A DNA stretch of 64,000 nt, from positions 3,002,001-3,066,000 of the forward strand of contig NZ_CP100351.1 in NCBI RefSeq assembly GCF_024204645.1. Reading direction: 5' to 3'. Origin of the DNA: Desulfomicrobium sp. ZS1. Lineage in GTDB: Bacteria > Desulfobacterota > Desulfovibrionia > Desulfovibrionales > Desulfomicrobiaceae. A model generated the notes under the pieces. That model made no database searches. It saw only the letters and a program-made list of their open reading frames with translations, and was not told where the DNA came from. The translations under genes were made by a program, and so were the position numbers. Below are positions 14,739 through 39,717 of this stretch, piece after piece (within the stretch, counting starts at the first letter, position 1; the number at the start of each line of letters is the position of its first letter).

Positions 14739-14753
14739 TAAAAAAAGAAAAAC

Positions 14754-14797: not shown

Positions 14798-14822
14798 CGC
14801 CCGACAACATGCGAGGAACCTC

Positions 14823-16052: not shown

Positions 16053-16061
16053 GAGTCTCAC

Positions 16062-17222
16062 ATGAGCATGCCCATAGATCCGCGCAGCCTGCGCAAACGC
16101 AAAAACAAAGAGAGCCAGTTCAAAGCTCTCTCCTACATGGCCATTGCCGTTGCCGGAATTTTTCTGGTGGTCTTCTTCGCGGACATCATCCGTCAGGGAT
16201 ACACCGCCTTCATGCAAACGGAGATCCGAACCAACGTCACCTTTTCGCAGTCGATTTTGGATGACCCCAGATCCGCCCTGGACAGGAAGCTCATTCCCCT
16301 AGTCAGCCGCGGCGTAACCCGCATCTTGCCCATGCAACTGCGCGAAAATCCGCAACTGCTGGGCACGACCTCCGAGGTCTGGGTGCTGGCCAACGCCGAG
16401 GTGGACCAATACATAAAGGGCAAGCCCAACCGTCTGAAGCCCAAGGAAATAGCGCTGGTAGACGAGCTTGTGGCCGAAGGCTCGATCAAGAAAGCCTTCA
16501 ACGTCGGTTTCTTCACCAACGGCGACTCCAAGCTGGCGGAGATGGCGGGCATCCTGTCCGCCGCCGTGGGCACGCTCTACCTGCTGGGCATCACCTTCAT
16601 CTTCAGCTTTCCGGCCGGAGTGATGGCCGCCATCTATCTGGAGGAGTTCGCTCCGGACAACCGGCTCATGCACATCGTCGAGGTCAACATCAACAACCTT
16701 GCCGCCATCCCGTCCATCCTTTTCGGTCTTTTGGGACTTGCGATCTTCATCAACTTCATGGGCCTGCCGCGCTCCTCCGCCCTGGTCGGCGGGCTTACCC
16801 TTGCGCTCATGACCCTGCCGGTCATCATCATCTCCACCCGCGCGGCCATCCGGGCCATTCCGGACTCCATCCGCGAGGGCGCGCTGGCGCTGGGCGCAAC
16901 CCATTGGCAGGTGGTCTGGGACCACATCCTGCCTTTGTCCCTGCCCGGCATCCTGACCGGCACCATCATCGGCCTGGCCCGCGCCATCGGCGAGACCGCG
17001 CCGCTCCTCATCATCGGCATGGTCGCCTACATCCAGGACATGCCGCGCGGCCTGACCAGCGCGGCCACCGTGCTCCCGGCCCAGATCTACGTGTGGTCCT
17101 CGGAATCCATACGCGCCTTCACCGAGCGCACTTCCGCCGGCATCATCGTCCTTCTGGTCGTGCTCTTGTCCATGAACGCCCTGGCCATTCTGCTCAGGAA
17201 CAAATACGAGCGCAAATGGTGA
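16062..17222 (+). CDS. pstA: PstA phosphate ABC transporter permease
   Basis: 386 aa with an AGGAG site. After one membrane segment (about 27-45) there is a long extracytoplasmic stretch (about 46-165) of the kind found in long proteobacterial PstA proteins. The permease core follows, with IREGALALGATHWQVVW and GLARAIGETAP. It is the last gene of the pst unit here: no pstB ATPase or separate phoU follows, and a clear terminator closes the operon. The ATPase must be encoded elsewhere. Confidence 0.93.
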   Translation: MSMPIDPRSLRKRKNKESQFKALSYMAIAVAGIFLVVFFADIIRQGYTAFMQTEIRTNVTFSQSILDDPRSALDRKLIPLVSRGVTRILPMQLRENPQLLGTTSEVWVLANAEVDQYIKGKPNRLKPKEIALVDELVAEGSIKKAFNVGFFTNGDSKLAEMAGILSAAVGTLYLLGITFIFSFPAGVMAAIYLEEFAPDNRLMHIVEVNINNLAAIPSILFGLLGLAIFINFMGLPRSSALVGGLTLALMTLPVIIISTRAAIRAIPDSIREGALALGATHWQVVWDHILPLSLPGILTGTIIGLARAIGETAPLLIIGMVAYIQDMPRGLTSAATVLPAQIYVWSSESIRAFTERTSAGIIVLLVVLLSMNALAILLRNKYERKW

Positions 17223-25159: not shown

Positions 25160-26251
25160 CTACGGAGCGAGCAGCCGCTCCCGCATCAAAAGCCCGATCA
25201 ACTCACCGCGATCGAGGTGCCGCGCGTAGCCCTTTTCCAAAATTCCTGAAGCAGTCCTGTTCTTTTCCTGCTCGGCCTGCGCCAGATACCCGGCCAGAAT
25301 GGGTTCGACCTCACGGCGCAACTGGGCGTCGAACTTTCCGTCCAGCGCCCTGAACAGCGCTTCCAGCTCTTCGGGCGCGGGCAGATCGGCGGCGTTCAGA
25401 ACCGCGCCGATCCGCTCCCGGTAGCGCACCAGCGAAGCCCTTATATGACTCTCCTTGATGACGGACAGGCCCGACCAGCCCGCCCGCATCCATTGGAACA
25501 CACCGCTTTGCACCACCTCGCCCTCATCAAGATAGACCCCGATGGAGACGTTGGTCTGAATCCGGGACGAGACCCAGCCCAGCCCGGTCTTGGTCAATCC
25601 TTCCTCTTCCGAATAGACGTAGCGGCTGTCCTCGTCGCGCCCGACACGGTACCCTTTGGTGCCCACTTCCGATGGTTCGGGCTGCACGCTCACGGACAAA
25701 AGCGCCTTCGCTTCCGGCAAAAGAACAAGCACCCGCTTCAAACGCATCGCGTAGCATCCGCCCGTGGACAGATCTGCGGTGGTGCGGTCGTATTGCTCGC
25801 CCCGCACCACCAGCGTCCTAGCCGGCGGCCAGGGATCAGCCCACAGCTGCCGCTGTGCCTCCGCGCTTTTCGGTGTGGTCCAGACCGAAGAACGGATCGA
25901 AAAAGGCTTTATGAGCTCTTGGGGGATTTCGGGATTGTAAAGACAGCGCAACAGGCGCTGCATGGGCAGATTGATCGCAAAGCCCTGATACGCGCCGGGT
26001 GCGTCGTCGTATCGGAACAGGCCACCGGCGGCGTCGCCCTGGGCTCGGACATGGGCGATGAGAGGGGCGATGCGGTGCGGGTCGGGCTCGTGGCCGAGAA
26101 GCACCTCGCGGCACAGATGATCCACCGCCTGCTCAAGGCCGGGCAGCGACGGGTGGGGGCCGAGGGCATGGACCGGGCCCGCGCCAAAACCGAAAAAAAA
26201 GAGGATGAGTCCGCAGACCCACCCCCGCCGTACAAGAAAGGGGACACTCAC
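25160..26251 (-). CDS. Secreted protein of unknown function (lipid-gene operon)
   Basis: 363 aa from GTG 26251, preceded by AGGGGA. Residues 1-32 form a signal peptide (basic RR, hydrophobic core, cut after VHA). The mature protein has no domain I recognise: helical N-terminal part, a middle section with beta-type segments (TLVVRGEQYDRTTADL), and a helical end. The long in-frame extension upstream overlaps the Lgt-like gene and is unlikely. It begins directly after the Lgt-like stop codon and is probably the last gene of the four-gene operon. It may act in the periplasm on the envelope (inference). Confidence 0.6.
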   Translation of the reverse strand: MSVPFLVRRGWVCGLILFFFGFGAGPVHALGPHPSLPGLEQAVDHLCREVLLGHEPDPHRIAPLIAHVRAQGDAAGGLFRYDDAPGAYQGFAINLPMQRLLRCLYNPEIPQELIKPFSIRSSVWTTPKSAEAQRQLWADPWPPARTLVVRGEQYDRTTADLSTGGCYAMRLKRVLVLLPEAKALLSVSVQPEPSEVGTKGYRVGRDEDSRYVYSEEEGLTKTGLGWVSSRIQTNVSIGVYLDEGEVVQSGVFQWMRAGWSGLSVIKESHIRASLVRYRERIGAVLNAADLPAPEELEALFRALDGKFDAQLRREVEPILAGYLAQAEQEKNRTASGILEKGYARHLDRGELIGLLMRERLLAP

Positions 26252-26252
26252 G

Positions 26253-27284
26253 TTATATTTCCCCTTCCTTGACGAAAAAGCGGACCTGCGACCCCGTGAC
26301 CGAACTGCGGCCCGTGTACAGAAAAACGAGCAGGAAAACGCCCTGCAGGAGTAGCAGCACCGGCACGTTCCACAAGGCGGCAAGCCCATGGCCAAGATTT
26401 GCCGCAACCCCGTGCGCAGACAGGAGCACGGCGGGCGCAAGTCCGTAGAAAACGCTCACTGCGGCCATGATCTGATAGGCGGATATCTTTTGCTCGCCCC
26501 GGTAGTCGGCGCGGAAGAATTCGGAAATCACCCGCCAGACCTGGGTCGCAACCAGCGGCACGATCATGGCCACCGAGAAATTTTCAGCCGCGAAGAAGGC
26601 CATCCCCAGACAGGCGGCGGCGCAATACAGGTAGGCGGTCATGAGCTGCACGGGCACCAGTTCGCGTCCGCAGAGCTCATGGGCGTAGGCCGCTTTCTTG
26701 GTCTGCCCCTGGAAAACGATGTTCCAGCGGTTGAAGATCCCGCGCCACGGTTCGGGCATGGTCTGCACAGGGCGACCGTAGCAGCAGCCGAAACTTAAGC
26801 ACGCCAAGCGTCCCACTCCCTCGCCCACGGCGTAGGCGATGGCCAGGGCCGCAAGAGCCGGCAGAACGGCCCCCTGCCCGGTCAGCGCAACCACGGCCCA
26901 GGCTACGAAGGGGGCCACGACGATGCCCACGAAGGCGGCTCCGCCCACGCTCAAGGTGTTGGGCTTGCCTTCGACCAGCCGCGCCACGATCTTCGCCGCC
27001 GGAATGCACAGCCCGAGCATGCCCGCGACCATAAGCACAAGCCCGGTGATCCCCATGCCCACGGACCCCAGCAGCGCGACAGCAACGGCCGTGGCCAGCG
27101 TGTAGGCCAGGGCGCTCAAGGCTCCGTACCAGGTCAGGTTCAACGCCTGCCACGCGCCGTCCGGATTCTTGAACAGGGGCACGCTGGCCATCATCTGCCA
27201 GCGTTCACCGGGAAGAACCCGCCCGCCCCAGGCGATGAACGCGAAAAGCATGGCCCCGAAACACACAATCAGCACATACTCCAT
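26253..27284 (-). CDS. Lgt-like (prolipoprotein diacylglyceryl transferase family) membrane protein
   Basis: 343 aa with about eight hydrophobic segments. The motif GEGVGRLACLSFGCCYGRPV aligns by eye with the Lgt signature (GRxGNFxNxExxGRP), VPVQLMTAYLYC with HPSQLYE, and RVISEFFRADYRGEQKIS with the Lgt C-terminal RFxxEFFR-SxGQ region. The catalytic-loop Asn and His of true Lgt are replaced, so it may transfer a lipid part to something other than prolipoproteins. It sits between a PS-decarboxylase-like gene and a secreted protein gene, which supports a lipid role. Confidence 0.6.
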   Translation of the reverse strand: MEYVLIVCFGAMLFAFIAWGGRVLPGERWQMMASVPLFKNPDGAWQALNLTWYGALSALAYTLATAVAVALLGSVGMGITGLVLMVAGMLGLCIPAAKIVARLVEGKPNTLSVGGAAFVGIVVAPFVAWAVVALTGQGAVLPALAALAIAYAVGEGVGRLACLSFGCCYGRPVQTMPEPWRGIFNRWNIVFQGQTKKAAYAHELCGRELVPVQLMTAYLYCAAACLGMAFFAAENFSVAMIVPLVATQVWRVISEFFRADYRGEQKISAYQIMAAVSVFYGLAPAVLLSAHGVAANLGHGLAALWNVPVLLLLQGVFLLVFLYTGRSSVTGSQVRFFVKEGEI

Positions 27285-27314
27285 ATTTTCTCCAGCCGGG
27301 CCGAGACGCCCGGG

Positions 27315-28319
27315 TTATGCGTTGGGTCCAAGGATGCGGCCGATGCTCTCACGCACCCGCACGTCCGTTTCCACCCAGGGACGCCCCAGCCAGCTCGAAA
27401 AGCGGCTGCCCGCGTCCCCGCGAAACTGATTGGCGACCAGATCCGGGCTGAATTCGACCCGGCCCGGCTCAAAAATGAGCACATCAAGAGAACTCCCGGG
27501 CCGGTACAGGCTCTTGGGCTGCCCCTTGCGCAGGAAAAGACCGGGACGCATCCGCTCGCACGGCTCGTAGCCGCTGCCCGCATAGGCCTGCACGATCTGG
27601 CCGATCATGAGCGCCGCCACCTCGACCATGGCCACCAGGCCGCAGCCGCTGCCGCCCGGAACATCCGTGTCGATGACCGTGACCGCGCGGCGGTTGCGGG
27701 AAAATGGCGTGACCTCGCTGATCACGGCGGCGGGGTTGCAGGAATGGAAGGCGCCTTCGATCTCGTAGAAATCGCGCACCACCCCGCTGACCGGAGCGTG
27801 ATTGTAATGATACTTGTCCGGGGTGAGGCGAAAGATGGCAAAATCACCGCCCGTGAAGGACCAGACCCAGTTCGGCCGCCCCAGAAACTCCGCAAAGGAG
27901 AAGAACTTGTCCTTGATGAAAAGCACGCTCCCCTGGCTAAGCGACCCCGCAAACATGCGCGAGTCGGCGGGCGAGACCACGTCCAGAGGGTCGTCGCTCA
28001 TGGGCCGAACCTCGTCGTAGCGGATGCGGCGCTCGAAAATACGGCGGGCCGTGGTGTAATAGGATGCGTCCTCCACGCATTCCGAAAGATCGATGCCCAG
28101 ACGCCGGATGAGCGAATTCGCGCCCGAAATGCGCGCCCCCAGCGGCAGGTCGTAGTTCATGAACCCCAAAAGGCTCGATGCGCGGCCCGATACCACGGCA
28201 TTGAACAGGAACGGAGCCCGCTCCCTCACCCGTGAATACAGGTAGCCGATGGCCCGGTCGCAAAAAAGTTCCTCGTCCCGGATCTGCCCGGAATCTCTAG
28301 CTATATACTGATGCGTCAT
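27315..28319 (-). CDS. Phosphatidylserine decarboxylase-like pyruvoyl proenzyme
   Basis: 334 aa from ATG 28319, with GGGA upstream. It has the family pattern: VVSPADSRM (Asp119 of the triad), FRLTPDKYHYNHAPVSG (His171/His174), and RPGSSLDVLIF in place of the LGST cut site, giving predicted cleavage between Gly275 and Ser276 to make the pyruvoyl cofactor. The family turns phosphatidylserine into phosphatidylethanolamine at the inner membrane. It is a longer, divergent member and overlaps the upstream 801-aa gene by 23 bp. Another decarboxylation substrate is possible. Confidence 0.75.
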   Translation of the reverse strand: MTHQYIARDSGQIRDEELFCDRAIGYLYSRVRERAPFLFNAVVSGRASSLLGFMNYDLPLGARISGANSLIRRLGIDLSECVEDASYYTTARRIFERRIRYDEVRPMSDDPLDVVSPADSRMFAGSLSQGSVLFIKDKFFSFAEFLGRPNWVWSFTGGDFAIFRLTPDKYHYNHAPVSGVVRDFYEIEGAFHSCNPAAVISEVTPFSRNRRAVTVIDTDVPGGSGCGLVAMVEVAALMIGQIVQAYAGSGYEPCERMRPGLFLRKGQPKSLYRPGSSLDVLIFEPGRVEFSPDLVANQFRGDAGSRFSSWLGRPWVETDVRVRESIGRILGPNA

Positions 28320-30702
28320 GTTTTTTTCCCATTTTTTGTCCACTCAAGCGGGCATTTTCGCTGTGCATGCCGATGACAAGAAGCAGGAGCTGGATCAGCA
28401 CCGGCCGACACCCGCCCAGCTCGCCCGTGCGTTTCAATTCCGTGCGGGCCTCGCGCGCGAACTCCATGATGTCCCGTCCGCCGAGCAGCGCGGGGAGCCC
28501 GGTGCGGCAGAACTGCGCGGGCAGACATCCGAAATTCTTAACCGTCTCGCAGTCTTCCAGAAGATAATCGAGGGCTTCGGCAAGATGCGAGCGCCGCAAT
28601 TCCCCTCTATAGACCGCCTCAGCCCCCATGTTGAAGTCCTGCGCGCGCAGGGCCAGCGGGGTGCGCGCTCCGGCATGGTCCAGAATGCGCCGGGTCAGCT
28701 TTCCCCCGGCGCCGTGTTCCGGGTCCGTGATGCGGGCGCGCAGATCGCGCAGAAGCTCACCCGCCCCGAAAAGTTCGATCACATCCCGCCCCTCGGATTC
28801 GATGAAATCGAGCAGCGCCATGCGGTACTCCTGCACATGCACGCGCAGGTTGCCCGGATAGCGATGACTGCCCCGGACGCGGGACGCCCTGGATACGAGG
28901 TCGAGCAGCAAGGCGTTGCCCGAATCCCGGCGTACGAAAAAGGTGGGCAGGTTGATGGCCGTGGCAAAAAATATCTGTCGCCGCTCGCTCTCCACTTCCG
29001 GGCTATCGGGAATCGAAGACCGGCTGACGCGGCCGCCGAGCACAAGCTTGCAAGCAAGCGCGCTCAGGAACTGCTGCAAGCGGGCGGCAGGCCGCAGGTC
29101 CGCCTCCAGGGAATCGAAGAGGCTGTAGAACCTGGCCTCGAAACCGGAAAAACCCATCACCCCAAACGAGCGCTGCTTGTAGAGCAGGTAGGTCGACATG
29201 GACTCGTGAAAAACGCCCATGGCTGCAAGGTCGCGCTTCAGCCGCAGGTCGTTGCCGACCTCGCCGTCCAGGGCCGCGCAGCGATGGGTGCTCATGAGTG
29301 TAGTCATGTAATCGAGCAGCCGAAAATCCGGGATGAAATCGCCACGCAGGCCAAAAACCCGGGCGATGGTCCGGTCCATGAGCGGAGGGCCGAAGGGGGT
29401 CAGGGGACGGCCGCAGACTTTAAGCTTGGCCTTCTTCTTCCAGCGCCGCCAGATCATGCGCAGGTGGGTGTAATCAAGCTCGTGCGGCAGGAACCCGAGC
29501 GCCTTTTCCGGATGGAAATCCTCGAAATCCATGCGCATGGGAGCTGCGCTGTAGGTACCGACAAAAAGCGGCAGAAAATGTTCCATGATCTTGATGACCA
29601 GATCGCCCAGATATTTCTCGTCGGCCGCGCCGAAATCGCCGCCGCGCATGAGTTCTCCCAAGCGCTTGCTGCCAAGGGAGATATGCGTCCCGTTGTTGGC
29701 CAGGCAGGTGTTGGAGGTGTTGGGCAGAACGACCAGATTGTTGGCCAGGATACCGGATTCGCGCAGCTTGGCGATGGTGTTCAGCTGACTGCGCGAGAGC
29801 ATGCGGTGGCACAGGCCCATGTATTCCTTCTTGGCCTCGCCCCGGTCCCAGCCCGACAGGCACGGGTTCATGAACAGCTCGCGGTAATGGGCGTCGGGGA
29901 TGATCTCGTTCAGCCGCTTCTGCCGGGCCGGCGGCAACGGGGCGAAGTAGATCATGGCCCGCTGGCCGTGATCCAGCAGCCCGAACCGTTCATTGGCATG
30001 GTCGAGGAGCAGCTGGGACAGCAGGAAACGCTGGCTGGTTTCCCGGGCGATGCCGCGCCCGCCTTCGAACGCCTCGTTCATAGGCGCGGGATAAAAGGAA
30101 AAGGTCTCGGGGGAGGTGTTGTCGTTCAGGAAATGGCCGAGAAAGGATTCCGCCAGCTTGCGCACCTCGGCGCTCACCCCGGACCCGGCCAGATCGGCCA
30201 GGGAGAGCTTCAAAAGATAACTAATGGGGATGCGCAGCCAGTCTTCGCCGTCTTTCACGAAGAAGAAATCCGCGCTGTCTTTCCTGCGCCCGGAGGCCGG
30301 GTCGCTCTTGTCCGCCAGCAGGTCCCGCTCCAGGGTGTGGCGGGCAAAGGAGTTCAGCCGGGTCAAGGGAAAGCGCACCCAGCTGTTTTCCCAGACAGCG
30401 CCCGGCCCGGCCTGCAGATAGCGTTCAAGCTCAAGCAGAGTGTGGCTGGAGGTATCCCCGGCCACGGTGCGGCGGGCCACGTTCTGGTAGAAACTCGATT
30501 CGCGGATGCGTAGCGGCAGATCAACGGATTCCGGGCTGCCCATGACCGCGACCTGGAGTTCGCTTTCGCTTCCGGCCGTGGCGTCGTCAGGGCCAAAAGG
30601 GAGCAGGTCCACTAGGCGGTCGTTCCAGACACCTTCGAATCCCATCTTCCCGGCCAACCGCCCTTCCATGCCCGCCTGCATCATTGTCGTATCGAAAAAC
30701 AT
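28297..30702 (-). CDS. 801-aa conserved-looking protein of unknown function
   Basis: The ATG at 30702 follows AAGGTGGT; two GTG codons just upstream lie inside that ribosome site. The protein is soluble, with no signal peptide or clear membrane segment, mixed alpha/beta, rich in Arg and Leu. A central patch NLVVLPNTSNTCLANNGTH and a GGKLTRRI segment stand out, but no known nucleotide-binding or catalytic motif is evident. It heads the operon with the PS-decarboxylase-like, Lgt-like and secreted proteins, and a Pho box lies 60 bp upstream. A role in lipid or envelope change under phosphate limitation is inference. Confidence 0.7.
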   Translation of the reverse strand: MFFDTTMMQAGMEGRLAGKMGFEGVWNDRLVDLLPFGPDDATAGSESELQVAVMGSPESVDLPLRIRESSFYQNVARRTVAGDTSSHTLLELERYLQAGPGAVWENSWVRFPLTRLNSFARHTLERDLLADKSDPASGRRKDSADFFFVKDGEDWLRIPISYLLKLSLADLAGSGVSAEVRKLAESFLGHFLNDNTSPETFSFYPAPMNEAFEGGRGIARETSQRFLLSQLLLDHANERFGLLDHGQRAMIYFAPLPPARQKRLNEIIPDAHYRELFMNPCLSGWDRGEAKKEYMGLCHRMLSRSQLNTIAKLRESGILANNLVVLPNTSNTCLANNGTHISLGSKRLGELMRGGDFGAADEKYLGDLVIKIMEHFLPLFVGTYSAAPMRMDFEDFHPEKALGFLPHELDYTHLRMIWRRWKKKAKLKVCGRPLTPFGPPLMDRTIARVFGLRGDFIPDFRLLDYMTTLMSTHRCAALDGEVGNDLRLKRDLAAMGVFHESMSTYLLYKQRSFGVMGFSGFEARFYSLFDSLEADLRPAARLQQFLSALACKLVLGGRVSRSSIPDSPEVESERRQIFFATAINLPTFFVRRDSGNALLLDLVSRASRVRGSHRYPGNLRVHVQEYRMALLDFIESEGRDVIELFGAGELLRDLRARITDPEHGAGGKLTRRILDHAGARTPLALRAQDFNMGAEAVYRGELRRSHLAEALDYLLEDCETVKNFGCLPAQFCRTGLPALLGGRDIMEFAREARTELKRTGELGGCRPVLIQLLLLVIGMHSENARLSGQKMGKKHDASVYS

Positions 30703-30761: not shown

Positions 30762-30779
30762 GTGACCGGACAGTGACAG
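30762..30779 (-). promoter_or_regulatory. Pho-box-like repeat for the lipid-gene operon
   Basis: On the minus strand CTGTCAC-TGTC-CGGTCAC shows two heptamers 11 bp apart, the PhoB spacing, 60 bp before the 801-aa gene. An AT-rich TATATATA tract near 30732-30740 could be the -10 region. Confidence 0.65.
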
Positions 30780-30811: not shown

Positions 30812-30829
30812 CTGTCACCCAAACGTCAC
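30812..30829 (+). promoter_or_regulatory. Pho-box-like repeat for dedA
   Basis: CTGTCAC-CCAA-ACGTCAC on the plus strand has the same 11-bp period, 44 bp before the DedA gene. With the minus-strand box it makes a back-to-back arrangement in one 170-bp intergenic region. Confidence 0.6.
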
Positions 30830-30873: not shown

Positions 30874-31422
30874 ATGGAGATGAACACCATTGCCCAATAC
30901 GGTCCTATGGCCATCGCGCTAGGCGCTTTCGTGGAAGGGGAGACGGCGGTGCTTCTGGGCGGGGCGGGGCTGGCGCTGGGGCTGTTCGATTTCTGGACCG
31001 TGGTGGGAGCTGCCTTTGCGGGCAGCATGGCCGGAGACCAATTCTTTTTCTGGCTCGGCAGGCTCAAAGGATCCGCCTATCTTGCGGGGCATCCGCGCTT
31101 CGGGGCCAAGCTCGCCCGCGTCGGCAGCCTGCTGCTGCGCCACCGCCTGCCGCTCCTTGGCACCTACCGCTTCATCTACGGCATGCGCGGGGTCGTCCCC
31201 TTTGCCTTTGGCGTGTCGGACCTCTGCTGGCGCTTCTTCCTTGCCGCCAACCTGTTCACGGCAACGCTATGGTCGCTCTTCATCACCCTGCTCGGGCTTC
31301 ATGCCGGAAAATTCCTGGCCGATCCGTCCATCGTCGCAAGACTGCCCCTGCTCGGCGCGGGCGCGGCCCTGCTTTTCGGACTGGGGATGCTGGTGCGCGG
31401 ACGAATCAAGGCCCGGTCCTGA
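30874..31422 (+). CDS. DedA family (VTT domain) membrane protein
   Basis: 182 aa, typical DedA size, with about five hydrophobic segments. It carries the signatures EGETAVLLGGAGLALG (F/E-xxxP-type entry), AGDQFFFWLGR, and the conserved R-x-G/R motif in TYRFIYGMRGVVPFAFG. DedA proteins act in membrane lipid turnover; some are flippases or scramblases for phospholipids or undecaprenyl phosphate. AAGGAAGGG precedes the start. Its position opposite the PS-decarboxylase-like operon, with Pho boxes for both, fits a shared lipid role. Confidence 0.85.
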   Translation: MEMNTIAQYGPMAIALGAFVEGETAVLLGGAGLALGLFDFWTVVGAAFAGSMAGDQFFFWLGRLKGSAYLAGHPRFGAKLARVGSLLLRHRLPLLGTYRFIYGMRGVVPFAFGVSDLCWRFFLAANLFTATLWSLFITLLGLHAGKFLADPSIVARLPLLGAGAALLFGLGMLVRGRIKARS

Positions 31423-31469: not shown

Positions 31470-32741
31470 TCAGGACGCGCTCTCCGGGGAGACAACAAGC
31501 GCGGGCGCGGCCTGCGGTGGCGCGAAGCGCGCCAGTTTTTCCGTGCGCATGGGTTTGGTGCCGTCAAAGAAATCGCAGGCCATGTAGTAGCGCAGGTCGG
31601 AAAACCAGAGGCCGGGCAGATCCGGACGGGACGAGAACCTGCGCAGCACTTCAAGCGGATTGGAGAGCGCCATCCCGAAGGGACCGAGCAACTCGGACGG
31701 GTCGCGGAAGCATTCCCAGTCGCAGCGCCGACAGACCGGCTCGCCGCCCGGCAAATCCGTAAGCTCCCAGAAAGGGCCGAGGTCCTCCGCGCTGCGGTAG
31801 CCGCACGGATAGGCATGCCCGGCCGTGGCATCCACGAAAAAGAAGTCCAGGCCTCCGCGACAGGCGTACGTTTGCCCGCCTTCCCCATCCGTCTGCCGCA
31901 CAAGGGCGTCCAGTGAGGACAGCGGCGTGAAGAGGCGAATGCGCGACCTGAAGTCCGGCACGACATCCTTGAGCGCCAGCAACATGGCCCTTTTCTCCTC
32001 GGGGCTGAAACGGATGAAGGAATCCGAGGATGTGGCCTGGTAAACGGCACGATCTTCATCACTCATGGGGTAGCAACAATTGGCGATAGTGAAACCAAGG
32101 TTCGTCGCAAACGTGAAAAAACGGGTGAAGGCCTCGAAAAAGCCCTGCTGAAATCCGTGCGCATCAAAAGGGCCGTGCAAGGCCGGAATATGACCGCCGC
32201 AAAGACGGTTGATACCCAGATTGACCGAAGGGTAAAGGCCGCTCTGGTGAAAAATGGGCAACGCCTTGGCCATGCCCCGCACCACGCCGGGCAGGCCACG
32301 GTTTGTCTCATGGATGTCCGAGTCGCTGGAATCGAGGCTGATCCAGAAATTGCGGATGCCGCTCTCGAGCAATTCATCGGCCGTGCGGCGCATGCGGTCC
32401 TCAAAATCCGAGGCCTCGTGGCGCTGAAAGATAAAGCCGTTGGTGCCGGTGCGAATGTAGGGGATGCCGAGCTTTTTGGCGCTGCGGATCATGCCGGTCA
32501 GACGCGGCAGATCAAGCAGAGGTTCGCCTCCGGTAAACGAAACGGCCTGCATGCCAAGCCTGGCCACAGTATCGAGAATGCGGTCCACGACCTCCGGGTC
32601 GAGACTGTGGCGGGCAAAGGAATGATCGATGCTCATGCCGCATTGCACGCACCGCGCATTGCAGCGGGTCGTGATCTGGATCACGGCCTGGCCGGGAAGT
32701 CGTCCCCGGAACAGGGCGCGACAGGTGGAAAGAAACTTCAT
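31470..32741 (-). CDS. Radical SAM enzyme with C-terminal Cys-rich (SPASM-like) region
   Basis: 423 aa from ATG 32741, preceded by CAGGAG. The cluster motif CNARCVQC (CxxxCxxC) lies near residue 26, followed by the SAM-binding FTGGEPLLD. The C-terminal part has CRGGLDFFF, PCGYRS and CRRCDWECFRD, which could bind a second iron-sulfur cluster as in SPASM proteins that modify peptides or act in cofactor making. The substrate is unknown. It starts 46 bp after the HU-like gene and may be the last gene of the GAK-type operon. Confidence 0.8.
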   Translation of the reverse strand: MKFLSTCRALFRGRLPGQAVIQITTRCNARCVQCGMSIDHSFARHSLDPEVVDRILDTVARLGMQAVSFTGGEPLLDLPRLTGMIRSAKKLGIPYIRTGTNGFIFQRHEASDFEDRMRRTADELLESGIRNFWISLDSSDSDIHETNRGLPGVVRGMAKALPIFHQSGLYPSVNLGINRLCGGHIPALHGPFDAHGFQQGFFEAFTRFFTFATNLGFTIANCCYPMSDEDRAVYQATSSDSFIRFSPEEKRAMLLALKDVVPDFRSRIRLFTPLSSLDALVRQTDGEGGQTYACRGGLDFFFVDATAGHAYPCGYRSAEDLGPFWELTDLPGGEPVCRRCDWECFRDPSELLGPFGMALSNPLEVLRRFSSRPDLPGLWFSDLRYYMACDFFDGTKPMRTEKLARFAPPQAAPALVVSPESAS

Positions 32742-32787: not shown

Positions 32788-33198
32788 TCATGAATTGAGA
32801 AGCTCCCGGAGTACCTTGCCCGTCTTGAAATGAATCCGCCGGCGAGCCGGAATAGTGATGGTTTCCCCGGTGCGCGGGTTCCGCCCCATGCGCGCGGCAT
32901 GGAGCATCACGGAAAAGGAACCAAGCCCCGGCAAAGAGAGTCCTTGGCCTTGGGCCAGAGCTTCGCGGATGATCGCGTAGAAGGCCTTTTGCGGGGAAGA
33001 ATGGGAGTCCTGGGTCGTATGGGACAAATGGGACGTATGTTCTGCTGTGAGTTCCGTATTTTCATACGTCTCGTTTATCTCATTCGCCTCATGAGACTCA
33101 TTCACTTCATTCGTCACATTGGTCTCATAGGTCCCATTCGTCCCATTTTCTTCCGCCTGCGGCTCTTCCTTCAGCTCATTTTTTTTTTGCTTCGTCAC
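32788..33198 (-). CDS. HU-like DNA-binding protein with Asn/Thr/Glu-rich N-terminal tail
   Basis: 136 aa if started at the GTG 33198, which has no clear ribosome site and overlaps the amphi-Trp gene by 23 bp. Residues 1-65 are a low-complexity tail (TNGTYETNVTNEVNE type), encoded by degenerate short repeats. Residues about 68-136 match the arm and dimer region of HU/IHF: LSLPGLGSFSV, ARMGRNPRTGETITIPARR, IHFKTGKVLRELL. The N-terminal helix of HU is shortened. An A10 run at 33179-33188 could allow slippage from the amphi-Trp frame (see findings). Confidence 0.75.
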   Translation of the reverse strand: MTKQKKNELKEEPQAEENGTNGTYETNVTNEVNESHEANEINETYENTELTAEHTSHLSHTTQDSHSSPQKAFYAIIREALAQGQGLSLPGLGSFSVMLHAARMGRNPRTGETITIPARRRIHFKTGKVLRELLNS

Positions 33199-33487
33199 CC
33201 AGTGGGCTCGAAGGCAAAACCGGAGCTTGCTGTTGCGTCGCCACAGGGGTCAGCGGCTGCATTTTGTTCGGCACCCAGGAAAGCTTGAGCTCAAGCTTCT
33301 CCTTGTCGCTTTTCTGCTTGATTTCGAGCTCCGCCTCGATGCTGTCCGAAGGCCGCAGGATGAGGGGCCGCTCTTCATTGTCGAGAATGAGTGTGCCCTG
33401 CCTTAGGCCCGCGAGTACGGTTTCCAGATACGCGACCAGATCATCCCTGGTCATGATGTTCTTGGATTTGAGCTTGTCTTTACCCAT
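33176..33487 (-). CDS. Amphi-Trp domain protein of the GAK-type cluster
   Basis: 103 aa with AGGAGG before the start. The domain (about 12-75) has TRDDLVAYLETVLAGLRQG, ILRPSD and ELEIKQKSDKEKLELKLSW, ending in the conserved tryptophan that names the family. Function is unknown; such domains occur in one or more copies in GAK clusters. Its last codons are three AAA lysines in an A10 tract followed directly by TGA. It lies 19 bp after the CofD-like gene. Confidence 0.75.
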   Translation of the reverse strand: MGKDKLKSKNIMTRDDLVAYLETVLAGLRQGTLILDNEERPLILRPSDSIEAELEIKQKSDKEKLELKLSWVPNKMQPLTPVATQQQAPVLPSSPLGDEAKKK

Positions 33488-33506
33488 AAAATCCTCCTTT
33501 TAAGTA

Positions 33507-34697
33507 TCACGCCAGGGAAATGAGAGCCTGGCAGAGCAGATGCGGGTCGATGGCGCCGGTATTCGTGTCGGTCAGGGGAGTTTTAATGATCTGGATACCC
33601 AGCGAAGCCAGCTCCCGCTGCGGATTTTTCGTGTCCGCATAGGTCACGGACGGATCAAGCAGGACAAAATCGAGAACATCGCTGATGGCGATGCTGTCCG
33701 GGGCGTCGGCCCGCAGGTGACGCAGCAGGGTCCGGACCTGGCCCGCCAGAGACAGCCCGATCGATTCGGGGTCTTCGAACGTGTTCGGAATGAACACCTT
33801 GGGACAGGGCGTCTGACTCACGGCCTGCCCGACTCCGCGGGGCAGCAGGTTGGCGACGATGGAGCTGTAAAAACTGCCCACCGGGTAGCAGATGAGGTCC
33901 GCGCCCTGGATGGCTCTTCGGATCTTGTCGCGGATGAGCGGCCGCACCGGGGCGTTGCCCTTGGCCGGATCGACAAGGGACAGCTCGGACACGGCGCGGG
34001 TCAGAGGGGGAGTCTCCTTGCCGGTCAGCAGGTGCTGTCCGACGAGATGCCCCCCGCCCTCCAGCACGGCCCGAAGTTGCAGGTTGGAATTGATCAGCAG
34101 GCGAACTTCCCCTCGCACCTGAACCAGCTTGGAATAGATGTAGACAATGGGGTCGATGTGCCGCCTGTTCTCGAGATACCCGGCGGTCAGGATGAGGTTG
34201 CCGACGCTCGCCCCGCGTAGGTCGAAATCCGGGCCAATGGATTTCTCGAAGAGCTGCAGGTGATGGCGGATGATCTTGCGCATGGGATCCGACACCCGGG
34301 TGATGAGCGGGTGACTGCCCCCGACCAGGGCGGAGAGTTCGTCCTGCAGCTGTTCCGGACTGGCGGTCCTCGGCAGGCGGTGGGCAAAAAGCTCGAAAAT
34401 TTCTGGGTATCCGTGCAGGGTGCGATCGGCCAGGGCCATGAGCCGATTGCGCAGGTCGCCCACGGCCGGCATGTCGAAATAGCGCCGCAGCACGGCCGAA
34501 CTGCCGCCCGAATCAAACGGCGTGACCAGATGCACGGAGTTGTGGGTGTATCCGACCAGGGCCTGGCTGGTTTCCTTCAGCGCCGTGCCTCCGGTGAAAA
34601 ACAGGATTCGCGGCCCCAGGTCCGGGCTGCGCTGCGCCCTGGCCACGCGCACCGGATCAGGGACATTGACCTCCCGGGTGACCCGTATCGCCGTCAT
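33507..34697 (-). CDS. CofD-like (YvcK-related) protein of the GAK-type system
   Basis: 396 aa. The N-terminal TGGTALKETSQAL and PFDSGGSSAVLRRYF match the phosphate/nucleotide-binding start of CofD/YvcK proteins; LRGASVGNLILTAGYL and YPVGSFYSSIVANLLP are further family motifs. CofD itself moves a 2-phospho-L-lactate group, but this subgroup is uncharacterised. Its start overlaps the kinase stop by 4 bp (ATGA), so it is translationally coupled within the cluster. Confidence 0.82.
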   Translation of the reverse strand: MTAIRVTREVNVPDPVRVARAQRSPDLGPRILFFTGGTALKETSQALVGYTHNSVHLVTPFDSGGSSAVLRRYFDMPAVGDLRNRLMALADRTLHGYPEIFELFAHRLPRTASPEQLQDELSALVGGSHPLITRVSDPMRKIIRHHLQLFEKSIGPDFDLRGASVGNLILTAGYLENRRHIDPIVYIYSKLVQVRGEVRLLINSNLQLRAVLEGGGHLVGQHLLTGKETPPLTRAVSELSLVDPAKGNAPVRPLIRDKIRRAIQGADLICYPVGSFYSSIVANLLPRGVGQAVSQTPCPKVFIPNTFEDPESIGLSLAGQVRTLLRHLRADAPDSIAISDVLDFVLLDPSVTYADTKNPQRELASLGIQIIKTPLTDTNTGAIDPHLLCQALISLA

Positions 34698-35764
34698 GTG
34701 CTCTCCAACAGGCGCAGACAGCCGGCCGCGGCCTGGTCAAAGTCCACGCCCCCGCTGATCTCGAAAACCCTGCACCCGCGCAGCGCCTTGGCATAGTCCT
34801 CGGCCGTGGGGGCATAGCCATTTTCGGCGGTGAAAAAGAGGCCGGTATCCTTCATGAAGGCGTCCAGCAGATCGTGCCGCTCGTTTATGTCGATTTCCCC
34901 GATGCGCGTGGGCGAGCCGTCCCGATGCCAGTTCAGCAGCACCAGATAGCGCATGGGGCACTGCAGGATGAAACGGTCCGAACCAAAGAGCTGATCGATG
35001 AGCGCGTCGTATTTATGCTCCAGGCTCCAAAGCTCCTCCGGGGACAGACTTTGGAATCGCACCGTGTCCTCGGGAGAGATTATGCCTGTCAGATCGGGAT
35101 TGTGCAGCGCCGTGCCTGGATTGATGCGCGGATGCTTGGCCACGCCGAACATGACCGGAGCAGGCGTTCCCGGGCTGATCATCAAGCGGTCGTTGCTGAC
35201 AAAGGTCACTCCCTTGCTGACCAGATGCAGGGCCAGGGTGGACTTGCCCATGCCCGAAAACCCGGCCATGGCCATGCCGGCCTCGCACACGGCCACTCCG
35301 GCGGCGTGGGCCAGAAGACAGCCGTCGTTCAGGTTGCGCTCGATGAAGCGGTTGTTGATGAAATTGACGACCTGGTTGGGATTGGCCTCGCAGTCGCCCA
35401 CGGCCAGATTCCGCCCTTTTCCGAACAGAAAGTGCATGCCGGTCAGGCGCTTGCGAATAACCCGCCCGCCTGCGACGTCGGCCCACTCCTCCTTGATCTT
35501 GGTCTTGCCCGGATCCGGCTGTTTGACCTGAAAAGAAAGCCCCAGCTCCGGGACCTCGGCCTGCAAAGCCGTGATGGTGATGTCCGCGTCCGCTGCCGAT
35601 TTCAGAAAGGGCCCGAAATACGTGGTCATTTCCCGGGCCAGATTTTCGGAATTGGTCACGATCCGAAAGCGGCAGTCGCCCATGCTCAGGCAGACCTGAT
35701 GCGGTGTCGCGATTCCGGCGCTCAAGAGATCCACGAGTTTGGCCAGACTGGTATCATCGTTCAC
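34694..35764 (-). CDS. HprK-related kinase (GAK type B)
   Basis: 356 aa from GTG 35764, with GGAG seven bases upstream; it overlaps the ATP-grasp gene by 11 bp. The P-loop GFSGMGKST is at about 168-176, followed by VSNDRLMI, as in HPr kinase/phosphorylase C-terminal domains. The preceding 150 residues include a conserved NFINNRFIERNL stretch. The protein substrate is unknown; no HPr gene is present. TIGRFAM-type descriptions of HprK-related kinase B place it in the GAK cluster, which matches this context (recalled, not searched). Confidence 0.85.
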   Translation of the reverse strand: MNDDTSLAKLVDLLSAGIATPHQVCLSMGDCRFRIVTNSENLAREMTTYFGPFLKSAADADITITALQAEVPELGLSFQVKQPDPGKTKIKEEWADVAGGRVIRKRLTGMHFLFGKGRNLAVGDCEANPNQVVNFINNRFIERNLNDGCLLAHAAGVAVCEAGMAMAGFSGMGKSTLALHLVSKGVTFVSNDRLMISPGTPAPVMFGVAKHPRINPGTALHNPDLTGIISPEDTVRFQSLSPEELWSLEHKYDALIDQLFGSDRFILQCPMRYLVLLNWHRDGSPTRIGEIDINERHDLLDAFMKDTGLFFTAENGYAPTAEDYAKALRGCRVFEISGGVDFDQAAAGCLRLLEST

Positions 35765-36626
35765 GAATCTTCTCCATGACGTAATCGGTGTACATGGCCG
35801 CCGCATCGAGCCCGCAGGCATCCTGGATGCCGCGGAACCCGCCGAAGGCGGAAACCTCGAAGACAACCGGGCCGGTGGCCGCTTCCACCACATCGACGCA
35901 GGTGAAATCGAGGTCGAAAAGGGCCTGGGCCTGTTCGGCCATACGCAGGGCCTCGGACGAAGGCGTGGCCGGAGCGTATTTGCCGCCCGACTCGGTGGTC
36001 GTGTTCCAGGCCCCGGTGCCGCAGCGGGCGTAGGTGGTCAGGTATTTGCCGCCGAGAAAAACAATGCCCAGATCCTGGCCTGGCAGCTCGATCTTCTGCT
36101 GCATATACATGATAGGGTTTTCCGCGTGAAAGGCCTCGATGGCGAGGCGTGCCCCGGCGCCGTGTTCAATGACCGTCATGCCCCGGGCCTTTGACGTGAA
36201 AAGCGGCTTGAACACCGCTGAACCGTAGCGCTCCACCGCGCCCAGCGCCTCGTCCACGGACTCGGTGATGGTCGTGGGCGGCATGGGAATATCCCCCAGG
36301 CGCAGGGTCACGGTGCAACTCAGCCGGTCCAGGACCCGCATGATGGACATAGGCGAGGAGAAAATGGACAGCCCGCGCTGCGCCAGAAAGCGCAGCACCT
36401 CAAGCCTGTCGAGAAGATCCGGGGAATAGCGCGCGCCGATCTTCTTGATGATGAGACCGTCAAGCCCGCCCAGATCGACTCCTTCGGTCCAGACCTTGCC
36501 CGCGTCCAGATCCATGCAGACCTGCTCCATATCCACCAGCAGACGAAACCCGGTCTTGGCGGCCACCGTGTCCGCAAGAAGTTCCGAAGACCACCCGCCG
36601 CGTGTACCGACCACTCCTATCTTCAT
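35754..36626 (-). CDS. ATP-grasp enzyme of the GAK-type system
   Basis: 290 aa with a RimK-like ATP-grasp layout: a short N-terminal domain (KIGVVGTRGGWSSE), then ATP-binding FKPLFTSKARGM near 140-150 and the metal-binding end VVFEVSAFGGFRG near 255-268. ATP-grasp enzymes join a carboxylate to an amine or thiol through an acyl phosphate; the substrate here is unknown. It lies 9 bp after the PhoU-kinase gene and overlaps the HprK-related kinase gene. Confidence 0.83.
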   Translation of the reverse strand: MKIGVVGTRGGWSSELLADTVAAKTGFRLLVDMEQVCMDLDAGKVWTEGVDLGGLDGLIIKKIGARYSPDLLDRLEVLRFLAQRGLSIFSSPMSIMRVLDRLSCTVTLRLGDIPMPPTTITESVDEALGAVERYGSAVFKPLFTSKARGMTVIEHGAGARLAIEAFHAENPIMYMQQKIELPGQDLGIVFLGGKYLTTYARCGTGAWNTTTESGGKYAPATPSSEALRMAEQAQALFDLDFTCVDVVEAATGPVVFEVSAFGGFRGIQDACGLDAAAMYTDYVMEKIRER

Positions 36627-36635
36627 AAGCGATTC

Positions 36636-38273
36636 CTAATAGTTGAGTATTTCCAGGGGGAAAGAGAACTGTGCCGGCGACTCAAGGCGGGCTTCCGTGA
36701 GCCGCTCCATGAGGAAGAGGCAGCGATTGTACATGGCGTGGGCAAAGGTCCGGTTCAGCTCGAACCGGGTCGAAGTATAAAACGATCTGGCCACGCCGAG
36801 CCCAAGGCGGATATCGAAGCTCTCGTCGCCATGGGCCTTGGCGAACGCCTTGCTGAAATCGTAAAAACTTTTGATGGTCGCAGTGATCCGTGCGCGCGAT
36901 CCCCGGTCAAAGGCAGGCAGCCGGAAATTGGACACAAGAAAAACCGAGACGTCCTGCACGTAGTCGGAATGCTGCGAACGGTGCAGATCGATAAAATACA
37001 CCTTCTGATCCAGGTGGTTGTAGATGACGTTATTGATGTTGAAGTCGCCGTGAATAAAAACCGAAAAGGGAGCCGGATATCTGACTTCGATATCCATGCA
37101 TCCCTTGATCAATCCACTGGCCGAGGGGATGGGCACGGAACCTATGCCCATGGCGGGACGCATGAGATCCGGGTGGACCTGCAGGATGGAGGACATGCGA
37201 TCCAGGGCCTGGCGCATCATGTTCGTGGGCAGAGCGACCTGGTTCATGGTCTGCTCCCAGACATGCTGTACGGTCTGCTCGAAGATGAACAGGGCGTTCT
37301 TGAGAATCTCCTCATCCGGGTTGAAGATGGCCTCATCCAGGGTGCAGCCGGACAGAAACTCGGTCAAAAGCGACGCGTTTTCCCCTTCTTCCTGATAGCT
37401 GAAGACTCTCGGGACCAGTCCGGGAAAAATTTCATTCCAGCATTCCAGATTGATTTTTTCCTGCCGGATCTTGCGCAGGTTGCCTTCCTTGAAAATGGAA
37501 TCCCTGGCCTGGGGAGTTTTCTTCCCTTCCACGCGGGCGATGCGGCAGCCCGAGCGCGAGCCCCAGATGCCCTGGAAATCCACATCCGTGACATCCCCCT
37601 GCAGGCCCGACTTGTTCAGGTTGCGCTGCAGGGCCTTGAACTGCTGGATCTTGATGCGCTCGCCAATGATGACGAAAAGCAAGGCTTCCCCGATGTTGAG
37701 CAGGCTATCGCCGATGCGTTCCAAATAACGGATGATAAAGAGCGAGGTGATATGATCCTCCACGTTGCGGCCAATGCGCAGGTGGATCATGATCTTGTCG
37801 AAGTTCTCCTTATACATGATATCAAGCTCGTCTTCCATGCGACAAATGGTCAACGCTCCGGAAAGATTTGCTTTTTGCAAGACAGGAAGGATCTCGCTGA
37901 CCGTCTCGTGGATTTTGAGAAAACTGTCCTTGTACTCAAAATTTTCCAAAAACCGGTGGGTCGACAGATAGCCCATCTGCTTGGCTATATTGACGCAATA
38001 ATCGCCGATGCGCTCCAGATTGATGGTGATGATATGCACGGCGCGCAGATACTTCATCTGATCCGGAGCCAACTTGGTCTGATTGAGCGTCATGAAACAT
38101 TTATTTTCAATGACGTTCTTCAGGTTGTCTATGTAGTCGTCCTTGCTGAATATCTTGTCATAGGTCGCTGGCGTCGGCTCCAGCAGGAATTCGAACGTGG
38201 CCTTGATCTGGTTTTGCACCTCCATGATCAGGAACCGAAAATTCTCATCGAGCCCTTCAAAACTTTTGAGCAT
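36636..38273 (-). CDS. PhoU domain fused to an aminoglycoside-phosphotransferase-like kinase
   Basis: 545 aa. Residues 1-215 hold two PhoU three-helix units with the metal-binding motifs NLERIGDYCVNIA (85-97) and YLERIGDSLLNIGEA (183-197). Residues about 240-530 form an APH-type kinase: phosphate-anchor region near 260-275, catalytic HGDFNINN (His408, Asp410, Asn415) and FIDLH (Asp429). PhoU units sense or relay phosphate-transport state from PstSCAB. The fusion suggests a small-molecule or protein kinase controlled by phosphate status. It is part of the GAK operon, which has a Pho-box-like element upstream. Confidence 0.88.
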   Translation of the reverse strand: MLKSFEGLDENFRFLIMEVQNQIKATFEFLLEPTPATYDKIFSKDDYIDNLKNVIENKCFMTLNQTKLAPDQMKYLRAVHIITINLERIGDYCVNIAKQMGYLSTHRFLENFEYKDSFLKIHETVSEILPVLQKANLSGALTICRMEDELDIMYKENFDKIMIHLRIGRNVEDHITSLFIIRYLERIGDSLLNIGEALLFVIIGERIKIQQFKALQRNLNKSGLQGDVTDVDFQGIWGSRSGCRIARVEGKKTPQARDSIFKEGNLRKIRQEKINLECWNEIFPGLVPRVFSYQEEGENASLLTEFLSGCTLDEAIFNPDEEILKNALFIFEQTVQHVWEQTMNQVALPTNMMRQALDRMSSILQVHPDLMRPAMGIGSVPIPSASGLIKGCMDIEVRYPAPFSVFIHGDFNINNVIYNHLDQKVYFIDLHRSQHSDYVQDVSVFLVSNFRLPAFDRGSRARITATIKSFYDFSKAFAKAHGDESFDIRLGLGVARSFYTSTRFELNRTFAHAMYNRCLFLMERLTEARLESPAQFSFPLEILNY

Positions 38274-38281
38274 GACACGTC

Positions 38282-38551
38282 CTAGGAGGTGATGGAAATT
38301 GTGCCGGTTGCCGGGGATTCATCGCTTTTGTCTTTCCAACTGACCTTGATGCCGAGCTTGTTCTCCGAGCCCTTCTTCTTCACCGACACCTCGAATTTCA
38401 TGTACCCGCCCGGATGCAGGCAGATTTCAGACCCCTCGGAGTTGAGCACGATCCGCCCCTCGGCAAATCCATCCTGCAAGGCCTGCAGATATTTCTGGAT
38501 GGTCCGGCTGTCCTGTACGGACTCGAATTCAAATTTATCGTCTTCAGACAT
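38282..38551 (-). CDS. Second amphi-Trp domain protein
   Basis: 89 aa, nearly all one amphi-Trp domain: SRTIQKYLQALQDGFAEG, then EICLHPGGYMKFEVSVKKKG and KLGIKVSW with the terminal tryptophan. It lies 8 bp before the PhoU-kinase start and is clearly related to the 103-aa protein at 33176-33487. Function is unknown; it may form a scaffold or partner for the larger enzymes of the cluster. Confidence 0.72.
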   Translation of the reverse strand: MSEDDKFEFESVQDSRTIQKYLQALQDGFAEGRIVLNSEGSEICLHPGGYMKFEVSVKKKGSENKLGIKVSWKDKSDESPATGTISITS

Positions 38552-38568
38552 AAGTATTCCTTTTTTTT

Positions 38569-39708
38569 TCAGCCCAGCAGGCGTTCGCGATATTCGCGGA
38601 TGACGATTTCCCGACTCATGCCCGAGAGGATGAGCCGCTTGGAGATCTCCAGGTCATCCCAGGCCGGTTGATAGCCGATCTCCCGATTCGCCTTTTCCGC
38701 ATTTTGCGACGTGACGGGTTTGACTTTCTCACCCATGTGGGTGTCATCGCCCATGAAGACCAGCTTGCGACGTGTGGACGGACCCGCGCAGGCGTTGACC
38801 CTGCCCACGACCGTGATCAGAAAATCCGTGTAGCGCTGCGACTGGGGGTTCCAGACCTCGTATCCGTCCACGTCGTAATCGGCCAGGAGAATGGGCCAGA
38901 ACTGTTCGGGATGCGGAATGATGATCCCTCCGCCTAGCGCCCGGACCTCCTCGATCACCTCCGATGTACGATAGAAATAACGCAGCGAAAAATGGGTCTT
39001 GACGATGGCCTTGACCGCCGAGAGATAGGTCTGGATGCGGCCTATGAGTTCGTTATCGTACACTGGCCGCAGCGCATCGAAATAGTTGCGCAGCAGCTTG
39101 TTCTTGAGAGCGTCCTGGAAAAGGCATGCGTGGTTTTCCTCCACCATGCGCTGCACCTTAGTCACGTGATGGCGCACGAATTCGACCAGATCCAGATCCG
39201 CCCCGGTCTCCCGGGCAGCCTGTTCGATGCGGTCTTCCAGCGGTGCCGTTATGGTGTGCATGAAATCAAAGAGCTGGGAGGCGCGGTAGGTCTGGGTGTG
39301 CCGGAGCATGGCGCGGAGCGTGTGGGCGTGTTCCAGACGGACCGTGGCGAAGTGCAACAAGAGCTGCACCTTCTGGTTGAAGCCATGGGAGTAGCAGTCC
39401 ACCTCCACGCCGCTGAAATCCCCGTACTCCAAGATCTCGTTATGCTGAGTCGGGATGATCAGATTCTCGGTCATGCCTGGGAACATGTTGTGAACGCGTT
39501 GTTTAATGACCGGCATGGGCACGAATTCCGGGTGCCAGTGCACGGCCATGACGCTTTGCTGCCCAGGAAGGACAAGTGGCGGCGAGGCCAGTTCCGTCAA
39601 TTTTTCCTCGCTCAGGTCCGTACTGATCACGCTTTCGAACACGGCGCGGTCCTGCGCGGTGATGGCCGGGTCCCAGCCCGCAGGATTCATGGGATCAAGT
39701 GAACGCAT
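38569..39708 (-). CDS. PHP-like metal-dependent hydrolase of the GAK cluster
   Basis: 379 aa from ATG 39708; a TTG two codons upstream is a possible alternative. Histidine/aspartate motifs spread along the chain, AVHWHPEFVP near 57, PTQHNEIL near 87, IIIPHPEQFWP near 275 and GDDTHMGE near 325, resemble the metal ligands of PHP-type phosphoesterases. No known substrate. It sits between the XXXCH and amphi-Trp genes with short gaps (9 and 17 bp). Confidence 0.6.
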   Translation of the reverse strand: MRSLDPMNPAGWDPAITAQDRAVFESVISTDLSEEKLTELASPPLVLPGQQSVMAVHWHPEFVPMPVIKQRVHNMFPGMTENLIIPTQHNEILEYGDFSGVEVDCYSHGFNQKVQLLLHFATVRLEHAHTLRAMLRHTQTYRASQLFDFMHTITAPLEDRIEQAARETGADLDLVEFVRHHVTKVQRMVEENHACLFQDALKNKLLRNYFDALRPVYDNELIGRIQTYLSAVKAIVKTHFSLRYFYRTSEVIEEVRALGGGIIIPHPEQFWPILLADYDVDGYEVWNPQSQRYTDFLITVVGRVNACAGPSTRRKLVFMGDDTHMGEKVKPVTSQNAEKANREIGYQPAWDDLEISKRLILSGMSREIVIREYRERLLG

Positions 39709-39717
39709 TTGCAAAAC

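Follow-up and report, generated by a model that had tools for sequence, protein, structure and literature searches.

What does an operon make that joins a decarboxylase of the phosphatidylserine type to a relative of Lgt and to a large protein of no known sequence family, and under which conditions would it be needed? The operon lies in Desulfomicrobium sp. ZS1, within a 64,000-nucleotide stretch of contig NZ_CP100351.1 (forward-strand positions 3,002,001 to 3,066,000), which we call the window and whose numbering is used throughout. Our in silico analysis indicated that three of its four genes form a widely conserved module, hereafter the trio (P0001, the 801-aa protein; a phosphatidylserine decarboxylase (PSD)-like protein; and an Lgt-like protein), preceded by a Pho box. 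The corresponding features, from the last gene of the operon to its promoter, are the following.

About 25160 to 26251, minus strand: secreted protein P0004, GTG start, a lineage-specific passenger of the operon.
26253 to 27284, minus strand: Lgt-like transferase of the GRxxCxxxGCCYG type (343 aa; PF01790), with a predicted inverted topology.
27315 to 28319, minus strand: PSD-like pyruvoyl decarboxylase (334 aa; PF02666), the second psd copy of the genome.
28297 to 30702, minus strand: P0001 (801 aa, ATG start), a predicted ATP-dependent carboxylate-amine ligase with the fold of gamma-glutamylcysteine synthetase (GCS) and glutamine synthetase (GS).
30762 to 30779, minus strand: Pho box CTGTCACTGTCCGGTCAC, about 60-77 nt upstream of P0001, without mismatches.

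A first-pass annotation of this DNA had described a four-gene operon linked by overlaps. The four open reading frames (ORFs), all on the minus strand between 25160 and 30702, and their order were borne out. An overlap was found only between P0001 and the PSD-like gene (23 nt), whereas the PSD-like and Lgt-like genes are separated by 30 nt and the Lgt-like and secreted-protein genes by 1 nt. The fourth gene did not belong to the conserved unit: P0004, which has a signal-peptide-like N-terminus and matched nothing in Pfam or NCBIfam, was present only in the locus of ZS1 and in other Desulfomicrobium-type loci, and is, judging by this distribution, outside the module.

Conservation of the trio was followed in two samples, one of about 111-112 P0001 loci and one of 297 genomes of the phylum, from which 26 independently drawn loci were used for the neighbourhood analysis. 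The PSD-like gene directly followed P0001 in 105 of about 111 loci, and the Lgt-like gene followed in 95; nearly all loci lacking one or the other were explained by contig ends. Where the contig extended far enough, only one of the roughly 112 loci did not have the full trio. In the phylum sample, P0001 was carried by 31 of the 297 genomes; a 32nd match (G053:C9), covering 36 residues of an M18-type aminopeptidase, was set aside as chance. The neighbourhood survey proposed in the first-pass annotation thus revealed strong conservation, with a complete trio in all 26 loci. In one genome (G057) three genes were inserted, yet the PSD-like and Lgt-like genes still followed P0001. The flanks of the trio differed from lineage to lineage, and the tree distances of its three proteins were correlated (pairwise r 0.70-0.77, against at most 0.22 in permutations), in part through a common species history. 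P0001 itself was conserved over its full length at about 50% identity across Desulfobacterota, Geobacter-type bacteria, Nitrospina, Brocadia/Planctomycetota and others; no plasmid or phage copies were found. That the three-gene module is real appears virtually certain.

P0001 gave no match in Pfam (E ≤ 1), NCBIfam or the sequences of the PDB; a NifB-like PDB match of its profile (E 1.1 over 31 residues) was attributed to chance. An AlphaFold2 model built with 88 homologues reached a predicted local distance difference test score (pLDDT) of 91.9 and a predicted template-modelling score of 0.94. Among its fold neighbours (Foldseek, VIA-align) were E. coli GshA (1v4g; Z 16.6, root-mean-square deviation 3.9 Å over 412 residues), GshF (Z 16.6), YbdK (14.8), PafA (14.2), Dop (14.1) and glutamine synthetase (8.9), the top matches being without exception GCS, Pup-ligase/depupylase or GS proteins. 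The "unknown" label given earlier to the 801-aa protein therefore holds for known sequence families but not for the fold, since the model very likely describes a GCS-fold ligase.

The putative metal, ATP and phosphate residues of P0001 (E46/E48, D194/E199, H340 and E522/R524) were assigned by motif and order. In the alignment with GshA, the same succession of motifs (ExE, D..E, H, xAxP, ExR) was observed: GxExE at 44-48 corresponds to 25-29 of GshA, D194/E199 to D60/E67, H340 (in GTHIS) to H150, with HxS where GshA has HxN, xAxP at 385-388 to GASP at 199-202, and E522xR524 to E328xR330. Spacings were also close, with 47 versus 49 residues from the histidine to xAxP and 182 versus 178 from the histidine to ExR. 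The D194/E199 region is presumably comparable to the DxxHPE of Pup ligases. The motifs GxExE, D194/E199, H340, P388 and E522xR524 were invariant or nearly so in 87-88 of the 88 sequences (P388 of xAxP in all 88). Enzymes of the GCS/GS superfamily couple an amine to a carboxylate that they have activated, in most cases the gamma-carboxyl of glutamate; given the invariance of its metal and ATP motifs, P0001 is probably active as an ATP-dependent carboxylate-amine ligase. P0001 differs from GshA, YbdK, PafA and Dop in its length (801 versus about 500 aa), with a large insertion between the first motif and D194. A conserved cationic-aromatic helix, in which R419, W421 and K424 are invariant, could bind an anionic membrane. 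Neither PF04262 (GshA) nor PF04107 (YbdK) could be linked significantly to P0001 by sequence or profile and, as the profile comparison with GshA is not significant, P0001 would represent a new family inside the GCS/GS superfamily.

The second trio protein belongs to PF02666 (E 3e-39, 135 bits, cut-off 22) and was also matched by sequence to the solved PSD structures 7cnw and 6l06. It carries the PGSS motif with its G274-S275 cleavage site, as had been noted before; D118, H170 and H173 were present in 47 of 47 sequences and the pyruvoyl serine in 46 of 47. The trio protein thus has the D/H/H residues, the GS(S) self-cleavage motif and the fold family of PSD proteins (PF02666, PRK00723-like) in common, but unlike canonical PSD it is always an extra copy and forms a well-conserved clade of its own tied to the ligase, scoring below the equivalog cut-offs (TIGR00163, 75 versus 111.75 bits; PRK00723, 123 versus 371 bits). 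The second, canonical psd gene that the first-pass annotation had suggested looking for was found beside pssA in the same genome. At least two PF02666 genes were present in all 31 trio genomes, compared with only about 19 of the 266 others (counted by eye).

The Lgt-like protein matched PF01790 (E 5e-11, 42.8 bits, cut-off 24.9), and its model (pLDDT 94.2) had E. coli Lgt (5azb) as its sole confident match (probability 1.00). Core residues of Lgt are kept, Y53, R159, G170, R251 and E255 being the equivalents of Tyr26, Arg143, Gly154, Arg239 and Glu243. The positions of Asn146 and Glu151 of Lgt are occupied by the CxxxGCCYG motif, and His103 is replaced (by Val in the window protein). Other differences are a TKKxAYA loop insertion and an additional transmembrane helix at each end. 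The protein had been called a degenerate Lgt relative, a description at odds with its signature residues, which 57-58 of 58 relatives share without change. Two canonical-type lgt genes were also observed in the genome of ZS1 (L003, L004), one of the HGG type and one of the GCCYG type beside lspA; the latter shares the GRxxCxxxGCCYG signature with the Lgt-like protein. In two Geobacter-type assemblies (L015, 10373-11580, and L075), the Lgt-like gene was split over two reading frames, by a frameshift or a sequencing error.

The distribution of charges in the loops of the Lgt-like family was compared with that of three canonical Lgts (E. coli and the two of ZS1). Loops on the side of the active site contained a mean of 19.9 lysines and arginines, versus 7 in canonical Lgts, while those on the opposite side contained a mean of 2.8 (0 in the window protein), versus 7-10. 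Part of the excess on the active-site side consists of lipid-binding residues; the loss on the opposite side is independent of these. By the positive-inside rule, a heuristic, these counts predict an inverted topology, with the active site on the cytosolic side, opposite to that of Lgt.

As PSD and Lgt are both housekeeping families, the two genes might be mere duplicates supplying phosphatidylethanolamine (PE) and lipoproteins under stress, next to a ligase with an unrelated function. We regard this as very improbable, given the rigid co-inheritance with the ligase, the Lgt-like score well below the Lgt equivalog cut-off (TIGR00544, 29.6 versus 118.9 bits), the topology signal of the loops and the two other Lgts of the genome.

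The timing of expression was addressed through the promoter. The Pho box of P0001 reads CTGTCAC-N4-CGGTCAC, and its half-sites were identical in four Desulfomicrobium loci. Three further features of the window bear on it.

13609 to 13626: Pho box preceding pstS, which supports the validity of the motif in this genome.
13722 to 17222, plus strand: pst operon PstS/PstC/PstA (PstA, TIGR00974, 231 bits; PstS and PstC identified by eye).
30812 to 30829, plus strand: a weaker site resembling a Pho box, oriented towards the divergent DedA gene.

Across distinct trio upstream regions, a Pho-box score of at least 11 out of 14 was obtained in 27 of 86, compared with 40 of 315 control promoters (p 9e-5), an enrichment that persisted without Desulfomicrobium (p 6e-4). 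PstB, PhoU, PstC/A, PstS, PhoR and PhoB were recurrent neighbours of the trio in other genomes. The P0001 operon is therefore predicted to belong to the Pho regulon; the low-phosphate hint of the first-pass annotation gains substance from the perfect Pho box and this linkage to pst and pho genes. Its suggestion of a pathway that makes or attaches a modified lipid was also largely supported, by the Pho box and by neighbours such as pst/pho genes, olsF and further genes of lipid metabolism. It had further named three outcomes that would speak against it, namely a known family for the 801-aa protein, an unconserved neighbourhood and a sole psd gene; none of these was found.

Overall, a Pho-linked lipid pathway seems rather likely. 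We would give about even chances to its narrower form, a phosphate-starvation operon for a membrane aminolipid made at the inner membrane, on its cytosolic side, in the order Lgt-like protein, PSD-like protein, ligase. In the first step, the inverted Lgt-like protein would move diacylglycerol from phosphatidylglycerol (PG) onto a cytosolic thiol, that of cysteine or of a comparable acceptor, the glycerol phosphate by-product being returned to the cell. The PSD-like protein would then convert S-diacylglyceryl-cysteine by decarboxylation into S-diacylglyceryl-cysteamine, which resembles PE but contains no phosphate. Finally, the ligase would acylate the new amine in an ATP-dependent reaction, the likeliest donor group being the gamma-carboxyl of glutamate, as in the rest of the superfamily. 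The end product would be zwitterionic, in the manner of ornithine and betaine lipids, and in some lineages an OlsG/PmtA-like methyltransferase may methylate it. For 32:0 chains, the predicted [M+H]+ is 628.533 for S-diacylglyceryl-cysteamine and 757.576 for the gamma-glutamyl form, with a neutral loss of 206.073. This order uses each trio enzyme once and fits Pho control. That the product is free of phosphorus falls somewhat short of an even chance, and its thioether structure is doubtful. The fullest version, an inverted-Lgt lipid class built on S-diacylglyceryl-cysteamine with a gamma-glutamyl (or similar) head group, phosphorus-free and common to Desulfobacterota, Geobacter-type, Nitrospina and anammox-type bacteria, is offered as a tentative and rather unlikely proposal.

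The main rival keeps phosphatidylserine (PS) as the substrate: the PSD-like protein would make PE locally from PS, the ligase would add glutamate or another carboxylate to its amine (giving an N-aminoacyl-PE), and the Lgt-like protein would remodel or transfer the product. All residues of a true PSD are indeed present, pssA provides for PS in the same genome, and decarboxylation followed by ligation is chemically sound. A phosphorus-rich product would nevertheless be at odds with Pho control, the canonical psd already supplies PE, and the Lgt-like step is left unexplained; we consider this reading unlikely. Its product with 32:0 chains, gamma-Glu-PE, would have a predicted [M+H]+ of 821.565, a shift of +129.04 Da on PE.

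The searches for GshA and GCS2 bear on another possibility. GshA was found in none of the 118 phylum genomes searched, which ruled it out as a phylum-wide partner of the trio, GCS2 was not found in the genome of ZS1, and no glutathione pathway was found in the phylum. This leaves room for P0001 in a gamma-Glu-Cys role. The product would then be soluble, a gamma-glutamyl thiol or amine serving as a redox cofactor, and the Lgt-like protein would be a transporter-like or dead relative. Such a route is improbable, as the Lgt-like residues are as invariant as enzyme cores and the gene context is one of lipids and phosphate. Moreover, a pyruvoyl decarboxylase acts only on a substrate whose alpha-amine is free, and decarboxylation must therefore come before amidation; gamma-Glu-Cys formation followed by decarboxylation was rejected, since the pyruvoyl group forms no Schiff base with an amine that is already amidated, and amidating the cysteine amine first would block the enzyme.

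The genes around the trio were then considered. In the window, those upstream of the operon are as follows.

30874 to 31422, plus strand: DedA/VTT-domain membrane protein, the divergent neighbour, with homologues near the trio in 7 loci and the VTT domain found in a relative.
31470 to 32741, minus strand: radical SAM protein, recurring in 11 trio loci of several lineages; in L036 it lies between psd and the lgt-like gene.
33176 to 39714, minus strand: GAK-system genes (CofD-like, TIGR04357, 542 bits; HprK-like; ATP-grasp; amphi-Trp), a PhoU-like protein of 545 aa (36636-38273) and a 381-aa protein.
40341 to 40358: Pho-box-like site in the divergent promoter of the following gene, upstream of the GAK operon.
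40469 to 42880, plus strand: fusion of a PHP domain and a GT4 glycosyltransferase, with relatives in 25 trio loci, the window protein being a 42% identical orthologue of the recurrent fusion.

The best NCBIfam model for the PHP-GT4 fusion was GlcNAc-phosphatidylglycerol synthase, below the cut-off; the fusion might be a single-chain counterpart of the pair PlcP and Agt (phosphoesterase and lipid glycosyltransferase). GAK or 381-aa protein genes were linked to the trio in L032, L078, L184 and G089, with an island in L184 that reads OlsF-GAK-PhoU-like-381 aa-Lgt-PSD-P0001. The Pho-box-like site and the recurrence beside the trio tie the uncharacterised GAK system to phosphate control. Genes for OlsF, the ornithine-lipid synthase, lay within 14 kb of the trio in 3 of 26 loci, versus none of 34 control regions. 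Two control regions did contain Pst genes (one of them GAK genes too), and both proved to lie on the trio's own contigs, 10-30 kb away. Other trio neighbours included a Zn-dependent phospholipase C (Zn-PLC), PPK and, downstream of the Lgt-like gene in L039, L081 and L045 (Brocadia, another planctomycete and Nitrospinae), an OlsG/PmtA-like lipid N-methyltransferase.

These neighbourhoods also bear on protein or peptide lipidation, in which a PafA-like ligase would join a protein carboxylate to an aminolipid produced by the PSD-like and Lgt-like proteins, as a bacterial parallel to Atg8-PE. In its favour, the closest folds include PafA and Dop (Z 14), and Lgt enzymes have proteins as substrates. 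A search for conserved small or Pup-like ORFs beside the trio gave none, the apparent small-ORF families being mostly shadow ORFs of psd and lgt; in addition, the fourth gene is lineage-specific and the Lgt-like site is predicted to be cytosolic. This possibility appears scarcely probable, and in the absence of a conserved partner ORF the anchored product suggested earlier, read as a protein, is not indicated.

The trio resembles known phosphate-stress remodelling systems (PlcP-Agt, BtaAB and OlsBA/OlsF) in its Pho box, its Pho-regulon and lipid gene neighbours and its proposed aminolipid-type chemistry (PMC4796936 for PlcP; PMC5193443 for D. alaskensis G20). Its enzymes are none of BtaA, BtaB, OlsA/B/F, PlcP or Agt, and a route by diacylglyceryl transfer would be new. 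No account of this gene set or of glutamyl-PE was found in the open-access papers searched. In the genome of ZS1, neither OlsB/OlsF (PF13444) nor BtaA (PF11899) was matched, whereas 7 of the 10 genomes sampled from the sister family had an OlsF-type gene and lacked the trio. When phosphate is limiting, the related bacterium D. alaskensis G20 forms glycolipids and ornithine lipids (PMC5193443). Across the phylum sample, the trio was counted in 31 genomes, a full-length BtaA in 4 and an OlsB/OlsF-type domain in 54. An anticorrelation between trio and OlsF was not seen (about 4 of 31 versus about 29 of 266 genomes, by eye), and OlsF was nearby in 3 of the 4.

Several observations weigh against the proposed pathway. 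The GCS assignment of P0001 depends on the predicted fold and motif order, the profile comparison with GshA being not significant (hhalign, E 0.034, probability 1.5). Strong Pho boxes were found mainly in Desulfomicrobium (scores of at least 12 without this genus, p 0.09), and Pst/PhoU genes lay within 10 kb in only 5 of 26 independent loci. Desulforhopalus singaporensis (L074, 7833-10256) carries the ligase gene, while its genome as a whole contains neither the PSD-like nor the Lgt-like partner. The thiol acceptor, the glutamate donor and the product structure are things that we infer. In the accessible part of a lipid analysis of the trio-bearing Desulfatibacillum alkenivorans, the bulk lipids are only PE, PG and cardiolipin (PMC11150832); that part describes growth on an alkene and does not mention phosphate limitation. 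As far as this part of the account goes, the trio product is not a major lipid of D. alkenivorans under the conditions used.

For these bacteria, the trio would bring to light a new ligase family wholly missed by sequence annotation, together with a candidate Lgt homologue facing the cytosol. It is also a candidate third route to aminolipids; those known in these anaerobes depend on the enzymes of ornithine and betaine lipids. Aminolipids without an assigned identity have been described in Desulfosediminicola, a link to the trio that is suggestive only; for such entries in the polar-lipid descriptions of sulfate reducers, the trio may offer a gene handle and predicted masses.

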